From Nannochloropsis oceanica (Eukaryota > Sar > Eustigmatophyceae > Eustigmatales > Monodopsidaceae), in contig CP038106.1 of the NCBI GenBank assembly GCA_004519485.1, positions 372,001-436,000 on the forward strand: a DNA stretch of 64,000 bases. Reading direction: 5' to 3'. The notes beneath the pieces were generated by a model. The model worked only from the letters and a program-made list of their open reading frames with translations, ran no database searches and was not told the origin of the DNA. Numbering within the stretch: position 1 is the stretch's first letter; every line of letters starts with the position of its first letter. This document shows, one piece after another, positions 45,540 to 53,696 of the stretch. The position numbers were made by a program, and so were the translations under genes.

Positions 45540-45849
45540 GGTGCTTGTCTATGTGTGTGGGGAAGCTGTGGGCTGATGGAGAAGCCCAGCAGTTGACCTG
45601 CTGCTGTTGATGTCGCCTGGATGGAGGGGGAAATAGGATATATTAAATTTATGAATGGCATAATTAACACATGACCATAAACAAGGTATGTTAGATCATG
45701 GTTCAGAGTGGCAGAGGTGGGTTTGGCCTTATTTGACAGCCTTGAAAGTCAAGCCTCGCCGCCGTCGCCCAACGGTCGTGCCGTTGGGCTATCCCACTCA
45801 CACCACAAATCAACACTCTACGCACACAGGACGAAGCAAGCGCGCATCG
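45540..45849. other. Divergent intergenic region
   Basis: Shared upstream region of the small plastid-type gene and the PPCS-lipase gene. AT-rich near 45635-45670. No gene is seen. Confidence 0.5.
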
Positions 45850-48800
45850 ATGTGGTTTAACCAGGCGGGAAGGAACCCCAAGCCGGATGATGATGCTTAC
45901 ATAGCCGCCTTTTACGAGGACCTGGACGGGGCCAGCCCTGGAGACAGAGGTAACTGCTCAACCACACTGGCGGCCTCCTCCTCGGATGCCGCCACTCAAA
46001 TCCGCACCTTTATCGAGCAGGAGGAGCAGGAGCAGTCACCAGGGTCTCAAACCTTTCCCCCGATTTCCCACGATGAGTTCACCTCTGCCCTATTGCCCAT
46101 CACGCGCCTGGCCATTGTCACGAGCGGTTCTGTTCCGACTCCCCTGGACACGGATTCAGTCAATTACCTGGACACTTTGGGGTCGGGTAATCGTGCGGCA
46201 GCATGTGCGGAAGAATTTTTGAGGAAAGGGTATCATGTCATATTCTTGTACCGAGACGGCTCTTTACGCCCCTTTTCCCGAGTCCTGGCCAAGCGTATGA
46301 AAAAAACACATGCGCTGACAGATCAAGTGCAATTAAATTCGAAGACGGGCCGCGTGGAGCTGGTGATGGATGCGGATGAGGAAGCGCGCATGACCCAAGT
46401 CCTCATGGCGTATGAGTCGGTCAAGCTGCGTCTACTCGAAGTGTCCTTTTCTGATCTGTTTGAGTACTTATATCTTTTGCGAGAAGCCTGCCGCGCCGCC
46501 GCGCCATTGCGCCATGGAGCCTTGCTCTTTATGGCTGCTGGATTGACGAAAATGTTTATTCCTCGCCATGAGTTGACTCGACCTTCAGCTACTTTCCTTG
46601 ATCAGGGCAAGGAGGCCTTGAAGCTCTACCCCGTGCCACACATAATTCGCGCCGCGCGGCAATGCTGGTGTCCTCAGGCTTTTCTCGTGGCCTTCAAACT
46701 GGAGAACGACACCCTAAGCCTGGTCGAAGGGGCGCATCGCTTGCTGGAGAGGCATGGCGTGCATCTTGTGGTCGGCAACGTCGTCCGCGAGAGGAATCGC
46801 CGCGTCCTAATCGTGACTGAGCGAGATGAAATTAAGCTGGTCTCTCCGCATGAAAACGAGTTAGAGCCTAGTATGGTCAAAGCCGTGGTGCGAAATCACA
46901 AGCAATTTGCCTTGGAGAAAGAAGCCCTCAAATCCAGTCGTTCCTTACTCGGGCTCTCTGCGAAGTTTACCATGCTGAGGGAAAACAAGAGCGTTGTGGA
47001 CACGGATGCATACGGGAGGAAGCAAGTTCCTTTTAAAGTCGGTTTGCGGATTAAGGCGGATCGACACAAGGCGGACTCGCCGATTTATGAGCTCAAGGCC
47101 GTGTATTCCACCAAGGGAGGTTCTGCACGGGCCAATTTGTGGCAACGTGTGATCGAGGAGGAGGGCGGGGGAGAGGAGGAGGGAGGGGAAGGAGAGAGCA
47201 GAAAGAGTAGCAGCGACACGGCAACCCCTACTTCTTCTACTGCTGCTTTAGCCAATCCCGTGACACCCACGACCATCGCCAAAGGAAAAGGAGAGCTTCT
47301 TCTAACCTTCTCGCCCGCAGGTAAAATCCAAAGCCTGATTACAGCTTTTCTCTTCCTTCTTCCTCTTCTTCACGACTGCATGCACCGCTCACCGTCCCCC
47401 CCCCTCCCCTCCTCGCCCACACTCAAACAGGCAACCCCGAAACCATCCTCAGCCTGTGGGGCGACACTTACAAAGGCTGGCTCGAAGAAGAAGTCAAACA
47501 CCTACTTGCTGCCGCCAGTCATATTCCTCTCACCACCTACTTGAAGATCCTCGCCTCACCGTTGACTGCTGATTTCACCGACCTAGCGGACCTCCTGGCA
47601 CAACTCCGCACCTCAATCGCGAGTGCGTGGAAGAAGCGGGAAAAGACGCAGTTCGTCCAGAGTTATAACAATTTGATGAGTCTGGCATTCGATCGGGCCT
47701 TGATGCCTTTGGAAGGATTGATGGACGCTCAGGAGTTGCTGGACCGACGGAGGGAGATGGAGATGGAGGAGGAGTGGGGGAGAGGAGGGTCAGTGTCTTC
47801 CTGCTCGACCTCCTCCTCCCTGTCAGTTCGATTTGGCCGTTCCCCTAGAGGGTCCATTGGTGTTGCGGGAACGGTTGGGGAAGGAGGGGAAGTGAAGGTG
47901 TTGAAGCTGTTCAAGCCTATTTTTCGTGGTCTTTCTCTGGGCAGCATGTTGCAGGAGAACAAGCAGCGTTTCCCGCGACGTAGAAGCACCCTGACGACCG
48001 AAGGAGGAAGAGGGGGGGGGCGGGAAAGAGGAAGTAGACTGAGTCAATCGAGATACGGCGTGCCTGTGGCAGAGGTGGAGAAGGAGGAAGAGGAAATGGT
48101 AGCCAAGGCCGGGACTGCCAGAGTCCACAACACCGTCAAGCGCTTTGCGGAAGAGATGCTGGACGAAGGAGTACTGGACGATGTGATGGCCCACCTGGAG
48201 ACGAACCCCAACAGTCGTCTAGTCGTCACTGGATATTCTCTTGGGGGAATGCTGTCGCAGATCTTTTGCTTGCGCCTGGGCGAGGCGTTGCTGCAGCGCG
48301 GGCTGTCGACGCGGCATGTGCTGATGATGGGCTTCGGGAGCCCTCGTGTCGGCGACGAAGGATTCATGGCCCGGCTGCGGTTACTCTACCCGAAGCAAAG
48401 CGCGTTGATGAATGTTGTCTACCCTTTGGATACACTCCATGCCTTTCCTCCAGCTGGGGAGGGCTACGTGGATGCCGTCGTCAAGGTTTTCTTGAGGCAG
48501 CCTGGGCAGTTTGTCGGCCGGCGTGCCCCGTCGCGCGCCCGTACTCCCTTTGCCACGCCTTTGACATGGCTCCGTGTGTTCGATAGCAAGGTGGACGAGA
48601 TTGCGTCGAAGCACCGCAATCAGGAAAGGGAGCGGGCAGCAAGTGAGTCTGCTCACTGTGGTAACAGTGTTCGCACTGGCACCAAGGAAGATGAATGCGG
48701 GTTTTGTGGCTCGGACGCGCACACAACCCTCCGCCACCGCTGTCGAATATGCACGGAACGTGGCAGTCATCGCTCAGCCGACTGTCCTAACAAGGACCGA

Positions 48801-49124
48801 GGTTGTAAATTATGTGGCCTTCCTGATCACGCGACCGGGCAACATCTCTGTAGTGTTTGCAAGCTCCACGGGCATCGAGGTAGGTACTGCCACGAGTTGG
48901 CCAGTGTGGGATGGGCAGAGCTAGCAGCATTTGCGCTCTTCCATGATGCGTCGTATTATTCTTTTGCGACCGCGGCCGAGGACCCTGCGACGGTGCAGCG
49001 CATGGCTGAAGTTCCTCTTACCCCTCCTCGGGCGTCACGGCCGCATAAGGGGGGGGGCAAGGTGTTTGGGGTGACATTTAAGGAGGAGGACATGGAACAG
49101 CTTGAGGCTATCAATTATTTGTAA
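45850..49124 (+). CDS. Phosphopantothenate-cysteine ligase fused to class 3 lipase-like domain and zinc knuckles
   Basis: Two exons: 45850-47320 and 47431-49124 (donor GTAAAA, acceptor AAACAG, phase 1), 1054 residues. Residues about 80-360 match eukaryotic PPCS, the coenzyme A pathway enzyme joining phosphopantothenate to cysteine: LAIVTSGSVPTPLDTDSVNYL, CAEEFLRKGYHVIFLYRDGS, MAAGLTKMFIPRHELT and FLVAFKLEND. Residues about 560-880 resemble class 3 lipases: VVTGYSLGGMLSQIFCLRLG with Ser 760 as nucleophile, MGFGSPRVGDEGF, and VYPLDTLHAFPP with a probable Asp. The final His is uncertain. Residues about 900-980 hold three or four Cys/His knuckles (CRICTERGSHRSADCP, CKLCGLPDH, CSVCKLHGHRGRYC). ATG 45688 is an alternative start. 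The unspliced reading stops at 47544, within the second exon's span. Confidence 0.76.
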
Positions 49125-50103: not shown

Positions 50104-53100
50104 ATGCTCTCCTGCACCGTCACGAGCCTCGGAGTTCCTGGCAAGGCGGGGGCTCTCGTGGCGCGCCGCCATATTTCCTACAGCCAGGTAAGGCAAAAGA
50201 ATGGGAATGGAGGAGAAGTGGTGAGCGCTCGTGGGCCTGTGGCTACAGCGCCTGCTGGAGTATGTCCCTAGGACATGGCAACAGACAGCAGCCTGAAGCC
50301 GTGTGAATGGCCACATAGGCTCACATGCTCACATTTACATCTCCAACATACCCACCGCACACTGGAGTAGGCGCGACTGGCCAAGATTCTCTTGAGCGAC
50401 GCCACGGACAAGGTCTGCGCAGAGCAATTCAGAGCCCGTGGCCATGATGTTGACAGCAAGCCGGGCTTGAGCAAGGAGGAGCTTAAGCAGATTATTGGGC
50501 AGTATGACGGTGCGTTTTCAATACTTTGTCTTTGTTGAGGGATGAATACCTGGGTCTTGTCGGGGCTTGGGCAAGTGATGAGGATAAGGACTGGATGGAA
50601 ATCTCGCCCTCCTTCCTGCACGCACGCAACACTCAGCATCCACGAGACATCGATCTTTGGGTCGAGAGCCCCTCTACGTTTGATTTGATTGTGCTCTTTT
50701 TGGAATGTTTGCATTCTCCATGCTTTCTTCGCCCTGCTGTCTGCCAAACCTCGGCTTCCTCCCCACCCCCCTTTCTTCCAACTCAAGTATCCCTTCCCTC
50801 GGCTCATTCCTCCAACTCTCATCCCCGACTCACGCACAATTTTAGCCCTTGTCGTCCGATCCGCCACAAAGGTGACCAAAGACCTGCTCTCCGCCGCCAT
50901 CAACCTCAAGGTCGTGGGTCGCGCCGGCACGGGCGTGGACAACATTGACACCCCCGCCGCGACCATGCAGGGGGTCCTCGTCGTTAATACTCCTGGCGGT
51001 AACACGATTTCGACAGCTGAGTTGACATTCACACATATGCTGGCATTGTCCCGAAACATCCCGCAGGCAGTCGCAAGCTTGAAGGCGGGGAAGTGGGAGA
51101 GGAACAAATACACAGGCACGGAGTTGACGGGCAAGACTTTGGCCGTCATCGGGCTGGGAAGGATCGGGAGGGAGGTGGCAAGGTGGGGGAGGGCGTTTGG
51201 AATGACGACGATCGGATTCGACCCGATTGTGTCGGCGGCTGCGGCACGGGCGGCGGGAATCGAGCCTTTCCCTTTGGAGGAAGTGTGGGCGAAGGCGGAT
51301 TTTATTACCTTGCACACGCCCCTGACGAAAGATACCCGGCATTTGATCAATGCCGAGACGCTGAAGAAGTGCAAAAAGGGGGTGCGAATCGTGAATTGCG
51401 CGCGAGGGGGAATTATTGACGAGGGGGCTTTGTTGGAGGCTCTGGAGAGTGGGCACGTAGCTGGTGCTTCCTTGGATGTCTACGAGTCGGAGCCGCCCAC
51501 GGAGAAGGAACGTCCCCTAGTAATTCACCCGCGCGTGGTGAGCACTCCTCATCTTGGGGCGAACACGAAAGATGCCCAGGTCCGCGTGGCCAAGGACATT
51601 GCGATTCAGCTGTCGGATATCTTGGAGCAGAAGGACTTTGTGGGGGTGGTGAACGCTCCGAATATTGATTTTGCGCGCAAGAGTCAATTGATTCCCTACT
51701 TGCAGCTGGCGGAGAAGGTGGGCTCGTTGCAGGCCCAGTTGATTGGGACGGGGAAGATCAAGAGGATCAATGTGACGATGCAGGGGAAGGATGTGGCGGT
51801 GTCAGAGATGAGCGAGAGCATCAAAATTGCCGTGTTGAAGGGGACCTTGTCGCACTTGCTGGATCAGGAGGTGAACTTTTTGAATGCCGGGCCGTTGGCG
51901 ACGGACATGGGGTTGAGCGTCAATTCAGTGCTGGTTGAACGGCAGGATACGCAGTTCAGCAATACGATCAAGGTGGAGTTCGAGATGGACGGGTTTTTGA
52001 ACTTTTCGAGGTCTATTACGGGGACAGTATTTGGGGGTTCGCAGTTGCGAATCATTGAGATTGATGGGTTCAAGACCGACATCCCCCCGACGGGCTCAGT
52101 AGTCTTCTTCAACAACTTGGACAGGCCGGGGGCGTTGAAGGCGATTGCGGGGGTCTTGAGCAAGAACAATTGCAACATTTCCCACTTTTCCTTGGGGCGG
52201 CAGACGAAGGAGGGGAAGGCCCTGGGGGCTATCACACTGGATGAGCCAGTGCCCCAGAATGTGCTGGAGGAGATCGGGACGTTGCCAGAGATCAGCAACT
52301 GCTCCCAGGTCCAGCTGCTGGACATGGCCGACAAGGTCTTCCGCATCCATCAGAAAAGCGAGCCTACGTACGTGGCGGGGGATGCTCGTCCACATGTCCG
52401 CCCGGAGAATCCTCAGTTTTCCTCGGGCCCTACCAAGAAACGCCCTGGGTATAGTTATGCAGCGCTGGGCACTGATTGCTTGGGGCGATCGCATCGATCC
52501 AAGATTGGCAAGGCGAAGCTGAAGCTGGCCATCGAGGAGAGTAAGCGATTGTTGCAGCTTCCGGAGGATTATCGACTGGGGATCGTGCCGGCGTCGGATA
52601 CGGGGGCGTATGAAATGGCCATGTGGAGCATGCTGGGCGCGCGGCCGGTGGATGTCTTTTACTGGGAATCGTTTGGTAAGGGTTGGTTCACGGATGCCGT
52701 CTCGCACTTGGGCCTGAAGGAGAGTGTGGGCATCCAGGAGCACTCGGCCGATTACGGCCAGCTGCCGGATTTTACTAAGTACGTCTTTTAACGGGCAGAG
52801 GAAGGAAGGAGGGAGAGACTGAGGGAGCAGAGAGTTATGAGATTGTCTTCTTTGATTTGAATGGTGTGGGGATGGGGATTATTTGGTGGAGCTAAATCAT
52901 GCAGTTCGTGGCATAAGCTCACCCCTCCCTGCCACCCCTCCTTCCCTCCCTCTTCTCCTCCAGGTACAACCCGAAGCACGACGCCCTCTTTACCTACAAC
53001 GGCACTACCTCCGGGGCCCGGCTTAAGGACACCGATTGGATTCCGGACGAACGGACGGGCTTGACGTTCAACGATGCAACCTCAGCTGCTTTCGCCATGC

Positions 53101-53696
53101 CCATGGCCTGGCCGAAGCTTGACGTGACGACCTACTCTTGGCAGAAGGTGTTAGGGGGGGAGGGAGGACACGGGGTGATCATCCTGTCCCCGCGGGCGGT
53201 GGAGCGGCTAGAGAATTATAAGCCGAAGTGGCCGCTACCGAAGATCTTCCGGATGACAAAGAAAGGGAAGTTGGACGAGGCGCTGTTCGAGGGGTCGACG
53301 ATCAATACGCCCTCGATGCTGGCGGTGGAAGACTACCTGGACGCTTTGGCTTGGGCGGACACGGTGGGCGGCCTAGATGGGCTGGTGAGCCGGTCGGTGA
53401 AGAATTATAAGGTGCTTGAAAAGTTCGTGTCGGAGAATGAGTGGATCTCGTTCCTCGTCAAGGACCCCTCGATTCGGTCGACGACGAGCGTGTGCTTGCA
53501 GCTGGAATTGAGCAAGGAGCAGGTGAAGGCTTTCACGGGGCTGTTGGAGAAGGAGGGGGTGGGGTTGGACATGGGCTCGTACCGGGATGCCCCCCCCGGG
53601 CTACGGATTTGGTGCGGGGCGACGGTGGACTCGGAGGACCTCGAGGCATTGATGCCTTGGTTGTCGTGGGCGTATGCGGAGGTGACCAAAAAGTAA
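50104..53696 (+). CDS. Bifunctional phosphoglycerate dehydrogenase / phosphoserine aminotransferase
   Basis: Catalyses the first two steps of the phosphorylated serine pathway: 3-phosphoglycerate to phosphohydroxypyruvate, then to phosphoserine. Four exons in phase: 50104-50187, 50371-50509, 50846-52778 and 52964-53696; 962 residues. Exon 1 is a presequence-like leader ([12 protein letters not shown]). The dehydrogenase has [23 protein letters not shown], the NAD motif [11 protein letters not shown] at about 174, catalytic NCARGG and STPHLGANT, and an ACT domain ([20 protein letters not shown]). The aminotransferase starts near residue 592 ([16 protein letters not shown]) with PLP-lysine 780 in [14 protein letters not shown]. 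This PSAT is of the class V type known from alphaproteobacteria and Methanosarcina. No linker stop exists, and the last splice lies inside the PSAT domain. Confidence 0.94.

Follow-up and report, generated by a model that had tools for sequence, protein, structure and literature searches.

A predicted two-exon gene of Nannochloropsis oceanica joins a PPCS-like domain with changed active-site residues to a class 3 lipase-like domain and a Cys/His array

Introduction

Does the oil-forming alga Nannochloropsis oceanica possess a single protein that both makes coenzyme A (CoA) precursors and acts on acyl lipids? The question is raised by a locus at 45850-49124 of the window, which is the whole stretch of 64,000 nucleotides analysed here (contig CP038106.1, positions 372,001 to 436,000 of the forward strand, assembly GCA_004519485.1). 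Positions below are those of the window unless another contig or locus is named. The original prediction placed a CoA biosynthesis ligase (PPCS), a lipase-like domain and a C-terminal array of Cys/His knuckles in one gene and considered that the product might tie CoA supply to lipid turnover. The architecture and the enzymatic reading of its parts are taken in turn, since the first can hold while the second does not.

One predicted gene with three parts

The predicted gene lies on the forward strand and reads from an ATG at 45850 to a stop codon ending at 49124, giving 1,054 codons plus the stop when the exons are joined in phase. Exon 1 (45850-47320), defined by frame and splice site, spans codons 1-490 plus one base of codon 491. 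Exon 2 (47431-49124) includes the stop codon. The predicted intron between them (47321-47430, 110 nt, CAG/GTAAA...CAG/GC) is placed by splice signals, frame and codon scores. A scan for introns of 40-400 nt with donors at 47100-47544 returned 70 stop-free, frame-consistent GT...AG pairs, 11 of which (those in 47250-47600) were judged by eye; within these 11 a CAG/GTAAA donor occurs only at 47321. The acceptor at 47430 is the first one available to this donor, and its CAG/GC follows a pyrimidine-rich stretch.

Codon log-odds were derived from 10 further long open reading frames (ORFs) of the window, not all of them confirmed as genes. Until about 47320 the exon 1 frame mostly has slightly positive scores; within the intron each of the three frames is negative, and beyond it the exon 2 frame is mostly positive, the scores being small overall. 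Over the Cys/His array (48640-48880) the exon 2 frame is negative and another frame is slightly positive. An in-frame ATG upstream at 45688 would lengthen the protein by 54 residues; the start at 45850 is preferred because codon scores just downstream of 45688 are negative. Exon 2 contains two runs of nine G (48012-48020 and 49049-49057), spots where slips in sequencing or assembly could shift the frame, and the codon scores hold the same frame on either side of the first run.

The in-phase consensus splice sites and the switch of coding frame at the intron bear out a single phase-consistent two-exon gene, as predicted originally. Searches with each part likewise return the proposed domain order: PPCS (E 8.4e-33), the lipase family PF01764 (E 2.6e-12) and two Cys/His units. 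The presence in one predicted gene of a PPCS-like part, a class 3 lipase-like part and a paired Cys/His array is therefore confirmed at the level of the gene model. With the exons scanned apart, no Pfam family reaches its cut-off in the stretch between the PPCS-like and lipase-like parts. Among viral contigs, tblastn at E <= 1e-3 found no relative of exon 2 in 6 candidate stretches and none of exon 1 in 2.

The next gene downstream (50689-53696, forward strand) is itself likely a fusion, of the first two enzymes of serine synthesis. A 700-codon ORF in this interval encodes phosphoglycerate dehydrogenase (TIGR01327, 559 bits against a cut-off of 454) and then carries positions 1-124 of phosphoserine transaminase (TIGR01365). 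Positions 124-373 of TIGR01365 continue in a different frame at 52917-53693, which implies an intron near 52790-52960.

The PPCS-like domain

Residues 85-340 (46102-46869, forward strand) form a domain of the eukaryotic PPCS type that aligns in one stretch with the PDB chains 7edz and 1p9o, which we take to be human PPCS, and with yeast Cab2 (6ai8), at E values of 8.4e-33 to 9.7e-30. The Pfam DFP family (PF04127) also matches this part with 36.1 bits against a cut-off of 22, so that the fold is recognizably that of PPCS by sequence. The domain differs from eukaryotic PPCS in its active-site Arg, Asn, Asp and loop Lys, as well as in being fused to other domains. The changes fall in several motifs. 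The nucleotide loop reads SGSVPTPLD (46123-46149) where relatives have GGT or GPT, and the segment VNYLDTLGSGNRAA (46159-46200) has Arg changed to Asn, Asn to Thr, Ser to Gly and Gly to Ala. In AAGLTKMFIP (46534-46563) an Ala is changed to Gly and the cation-binding Asp to Lys.

These differences were gauged against a bacterial CoaB set of 30 distinct sequences, the 30 best-scoring matches from 60 genomes of one phylum, 59 of which gave a match. Another 80 CoaB loci, nearly all from enterobacteria by title, were left out of the counts because that sample was too narrow. Residues equivalent to Thr198, Arg206, Asn210, Ser212, Gly217, Ala276, Asp279 and Lys289 of Escherichia coli are each identical in 30/30 CoaB sequences and in a second N. 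oceanica PPCS on contig C16 (see below). The window copy has Val, Asn, Thr and Gly at the first four of these columns, and Ala, Gly and Lys at those of Gly217, Ala276 and Asp279. At the Lys289 column it has Glu in one alignment and Ser in another, and Lys in none; the HKIQSS loop of relatives is replaced by PSATFL in one alignment, while others place the loop differently. Thus none of the four residues that comprise the active-site Arg and Asn, the cation Asp and the loop Lys is kept, against the 30 CoaB sequences and the C16 protein. The equivalents of Gly196, Gly214, Phe327, Glu330 and Asn353 are retained.

What is described of a bacterial enzyme helps to place these columns. According to PMC7794376, residues R207, N211, A280, D281, I292, K293 and K294 of Mycobacterium smegmatis CoaB are common to the active site and an adjoining site, D281 is a cation ligand, and a K-X-K-K loop at the active site is supplied by the opposing protomer. 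These residues were mapped to E. coli 206, 210, 278, 279 and 290-292 by motif spacing rather than by alignment. The same paper reports extra dimerisation elements in eukaryotic PPCS, and PMC7770189 places the PPCS active site at the dimer interface.

The window copy keeps 41 of the 82 positions that are identical in the C16, human and yeast PPCS. Residue loss is not significantly concentrated in the active site across these 82 positions: 19 positions are kept and 22 lost in seven motif segments, compared with 22 and 19 elsewhere (Fisher p 0.66), and the four catalytic segments keep 10/29 against 31/53 for the remaining positions (Fisher p 0.064). Because the losses spread beyond the active site, general divergence could explain much of them. 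The changes at the active-site Arg and Asn, the cation Asp and the loop Lys lead to the prediction that the PPCS-like domain is a pseudoenzyme, probably unable to make phosphopantothenoylcysteine, a reading that the general divergence weakens.

A complete PPCS elsewhere in the genome

A search of the genome (29.26 Mb, 32 contigs) with the window domain as query (4 candidates scored) found one further PPCS, at 334366-335181 of contig C16 (E 1.1e-33, 35% identical over residues 74-324). Its motifs SGGTSVPLE, VRSVENFSTGKRGA (also given as VRSVENFSTGKRG), ACAVSDFYIP and EHKIQSS are canonical, and PDB structures of two types of PPCS carry them with small changes. A Pfam family search of the genome recovered the C16 PPCS in two pieces, and the window copy was not among its matches. 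A separate gene of the PPCDC family (flavoprotein) lies on contig C11. The function named in the original prediction, that of a CoA biosynthesis ligase, is not supported for the window copy, given its changed Arg, Asn, Asp and loop Lys and the complete PPCS elsewhere. An active second PPCS had also been considered as a candidate and was rejected on the active-site changes relative to the 30 CoaB sequences and the C16 protein.

The intact C16 PPCS (locus L005, 1150-2508, minus strand) ends in a hydrophobic stretch, DIFMALILGPGMVVLSVALQ, followed by basic residues, an arrangement that resembles a tail anchor. PPCS is usually a soluble enzyme.

The lipase-like domain

Residues 716-831 (48105-48452, forward strand) form a class 3 lipase-like core that matches Lipase_3 (PF01764) over profile positions 30-137 of 140 with 47.2 bits against a cut-off of 22; PDB lipases match the same residues with a best E value of 4.6e-4. 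The comparison set, drawn from viral contigs, contains 70 distinct class 3 lipases (80 loci, of which 10 identical ones were dropped), the 80 being the best of 316 confirmed loci ranked by similarity to L006, an N. oceanica lipase that has a G-T...Asp segment. Two patterns served to retrieve the loci, [TC]G[HY]SLGG[AM]L and G[AQS]PR[VIL]G[ND]x[APG]F.

Ser760, in the serine elbow GYSLGG (48231-48248), occupies a column conserved in 70/70 lipases, and the Gly-x-Ser-Leu-Gly-Gly and PRVG motifs are kept with FGSPRVGD intact; conservation of the Ser and of PRxG in this set is partly built in because the loci were fetched by those patterns. The candidate catalytic Asp824, in YPLDTLHAFPP (48420-48452), and the Pro after it are also kept, each in a column conserved in 69/70. 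The Ser elbow and likely Asp of the original prediction are thereby upheld. The third residue of the triad is doubtful. The alignment's candidate catalytic His, His885 (48612-48614), falls in the catalytic His column (67/70), while its flanks are not conserved, the neighbouring Asp (48/70) and Tyr (67/70) having been lost.

Other lipase motifs are changed. The oxyanion segment of the 70 lipases contains a Gly and a Thr or Ser (70/70 each) and two downstream Asp (63/70 and 64/70), a conservation favoured by the use of L006 for ranking. The window copy lacks this G-T/S and Asp-pair segment: it has gaps at both Asp columns, and on the G-T/S columns MAFFT sets a stray AGT that closely precedes VH. 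The VHxGF motif (V in 62, H, G and F each in 70 of 70) reads VHNTV, and the His of Y-x-H (65/70) is replaced by Asp838. The absence of an obvious oxyanion motif, proposed originally, is borne out, the nearest candidate being a degenerate IFRGLSLGS (residues 654-662; FRGLSLGS at 47922-47945) that resembles the IRGTLSLED of an own-genome lipase minus its Thr and Asp. The candidate is weak because this stretch is rich in Arg, Gly and Ser and contains three short R-G-S/L strings. The degraded oxyanion segment is consistent with, but does not prove, the suggestion that the domain might bind lipid instead of cutting it.

The genome contains 23 Lipase_3 matches including that of the window, counted exon by exon, so that the genes may be fewer. 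An upstream G-T motif is present in 8/17 other own-genome lipase ORFs (L006, L007, L011-L014, L019 and L020), several of the remaining ones being too short upstream to judge. L010 reads RGP at the oxyanion segment, L008 and L009 show no oxyanion G-T motif in the 160 residues upstream, and VHxG was not found in L010, L011, L014 and L020. The window lipase used as query against the genome found itself and two weak matches, at E 0.019 and 0.033 (3 candidates scored). Among class 3 lipases of Phaeodactylum the catalytic His is poorly conserved, and unusual yet functional oxyanion residues occur among hydrolases, as stated in PMC9964374.

The Cys/His array

Residues 913-979 (48696-48896, forward strand) contain two tandem CCHHCCHC units, a predicted zinc array recognized by pattern, each of the form C-x2-C-x4-H-x4-H-x-C-x2-C-x4/5-H-x4-C. 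Not one of 200,000 composition shuffles gave even a single such unit. The retroviral-type knuckle C-x2-C-x4-H-x4-C is fitted exactly by CSVCKLHGHRGRYC, the other repeats being unlike it. No Pfam zinc family matches the array at its cut-off, and in the PDB it matches only a retroviral nucleocapsid (E 0.066) and a repeat protein in which no stretch is significant. A genome search with the array found only itself (1 candidate scored).

Possible functions of the protein

The two enzyme folds with changed sites, together with the intact PPCS and the separate PPCDC-family gene, point to binding or assembly rather than catalysis. The tentative choice, somewhat short of an even chance, is a non-catalytic adaptor: its PPCS fold would mediate pairing, and its lipase fold would keep an acyl lipid bound. 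A working class 3 lipase carrying a dead PPCS domain, which would likely only dimerise or place the lipase, is a serious though doubtful alternative. It agrees with Ser760 and Asp824 in nearly invariant columns, with His885 in the His column and with the intact FGSPRVGD; FRGLS (655-659) could provide an oxyanion contact through its backbone, PMC9964374 records both unusual oxyanion residues and weak conservation of the His, and some own-genome lipases likewise lack VHxG or G-T. However, the oxyanion Asp pair, the Gly and Phe of VHxGF, the His of Y-x-H and the Tyr after the catalytic His are all changed. The bifunctional enzyme of the original prediction, in which the PPCS part makes phosphopantothenoylcysteine and the lipase supplies or uses acyl lipid, is very improbable: the strength of the PPCS match (E 8.4e-33) and the retained equivalents of Phe327, Glu330 and Asn353 are outweighed by the changed equivalents of Arg206, Asn210, Asp279 and Lys289, invariant in CoaB and kept in C16, and by the existence of an intact PPCS in the genome.

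The remaining readings deny that there is a functional three-part protein. The locus is unlikely to be a decaying, functionless duplicate recent enough to retain its frame; half of the invariant PPCS positions are gone and both enzyme sites are degraded, but 1,054 codons are free of stops, codon scores are mostly positive in frame and the Cys/His array is regular. Somewhat more improbable still is a mis-joined model of two neighbouring genes, in which the PPCS-like gene would stop near 47544 and a separate lipase gene would begin within exon 2. The inter-domain stretch without a Pfam match at cut-off is compatible with such a boundary, whereas the consensus donor and acceptor are in phase, the coding signal stops at the donor and restarts in a new frame past the acceptor, and the unspliced exon 1 frame would finish in a Pro/Ser-rich tail.

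For the non-catalytic adaptor, a mechanism may be sketched. In solved structures PPCS is a dimer, and a loop from one protomer closes the active site of the other (PMC7794376 and PMC7770189), which is the basis for proposing that the PPCS-like part would still dimerise, with itself or with the intact C16 PPCS. In a mixed dimer each site would lack either its own protomer's Asn and Asp or the partner's Arg and Lys loop; with both composite sites incomplete, the protein would lower PPCS activity. The lipase-like part would hold an acyl chain or other ligand, presumably without cutting it, in the scaffold manner of EDS1, and the Cys/His units would make contact with protein or nucleic acid. A built-in brake on CoA synthesis, with lipid binding deciding whether the dead PPCS joins the active PPCS dimer and impairs it, is a speculative extension and improbable. 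Overall, the interpretation offered originally is partly supported, and any link to CoA supply would have to be indirect, for instance by way of the putative pairing with an active PPCS.

Relation to known systems and significance

With class 3 (Rhizomucor-type) lipases of PF01764 the window part shares the Ser elbow, the PRVG motif and the catalytic Asp, but its oxyanion segment, VHxGF and Y-x-H are changed and its His is doubtful. The lipase-like domain of EDS1, a plant immune scaffold, is among the PDB matches of this part (E 0.0014). That domain is a lipase fold used in signalling without catalysis. Unlike EDS1, the window protein has no EP domain match in the searches made, and no membership is claimed. 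We know of no PPCS paralog with an incomplete site. The yeast PPCDC paralogs Hal3, Vhs3 and Cab3 have incomplete sites and form a heterotrimer, according to PMC4626798, making them a model for CoA-enzyme paralogs that have lost residues and work in mixed oligomers. They differ in that PPCDC performs the next step and the yeast mixed oligomer is active.

In open-licence PMC literature no PPCS-lipase fusion was evident from the title or start of the abstract among the matches listed, and nothing was found for PPCS combined with Nannochloropsis. If the protein does pair with the active PPCS or sense lipid, it would give an oil-forming alga a direct means of coupling lipid turnover to CoA supply. 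Otherwise, the finding still serves as a correction to an annotation that would count two CoA-making ligases in the genome.
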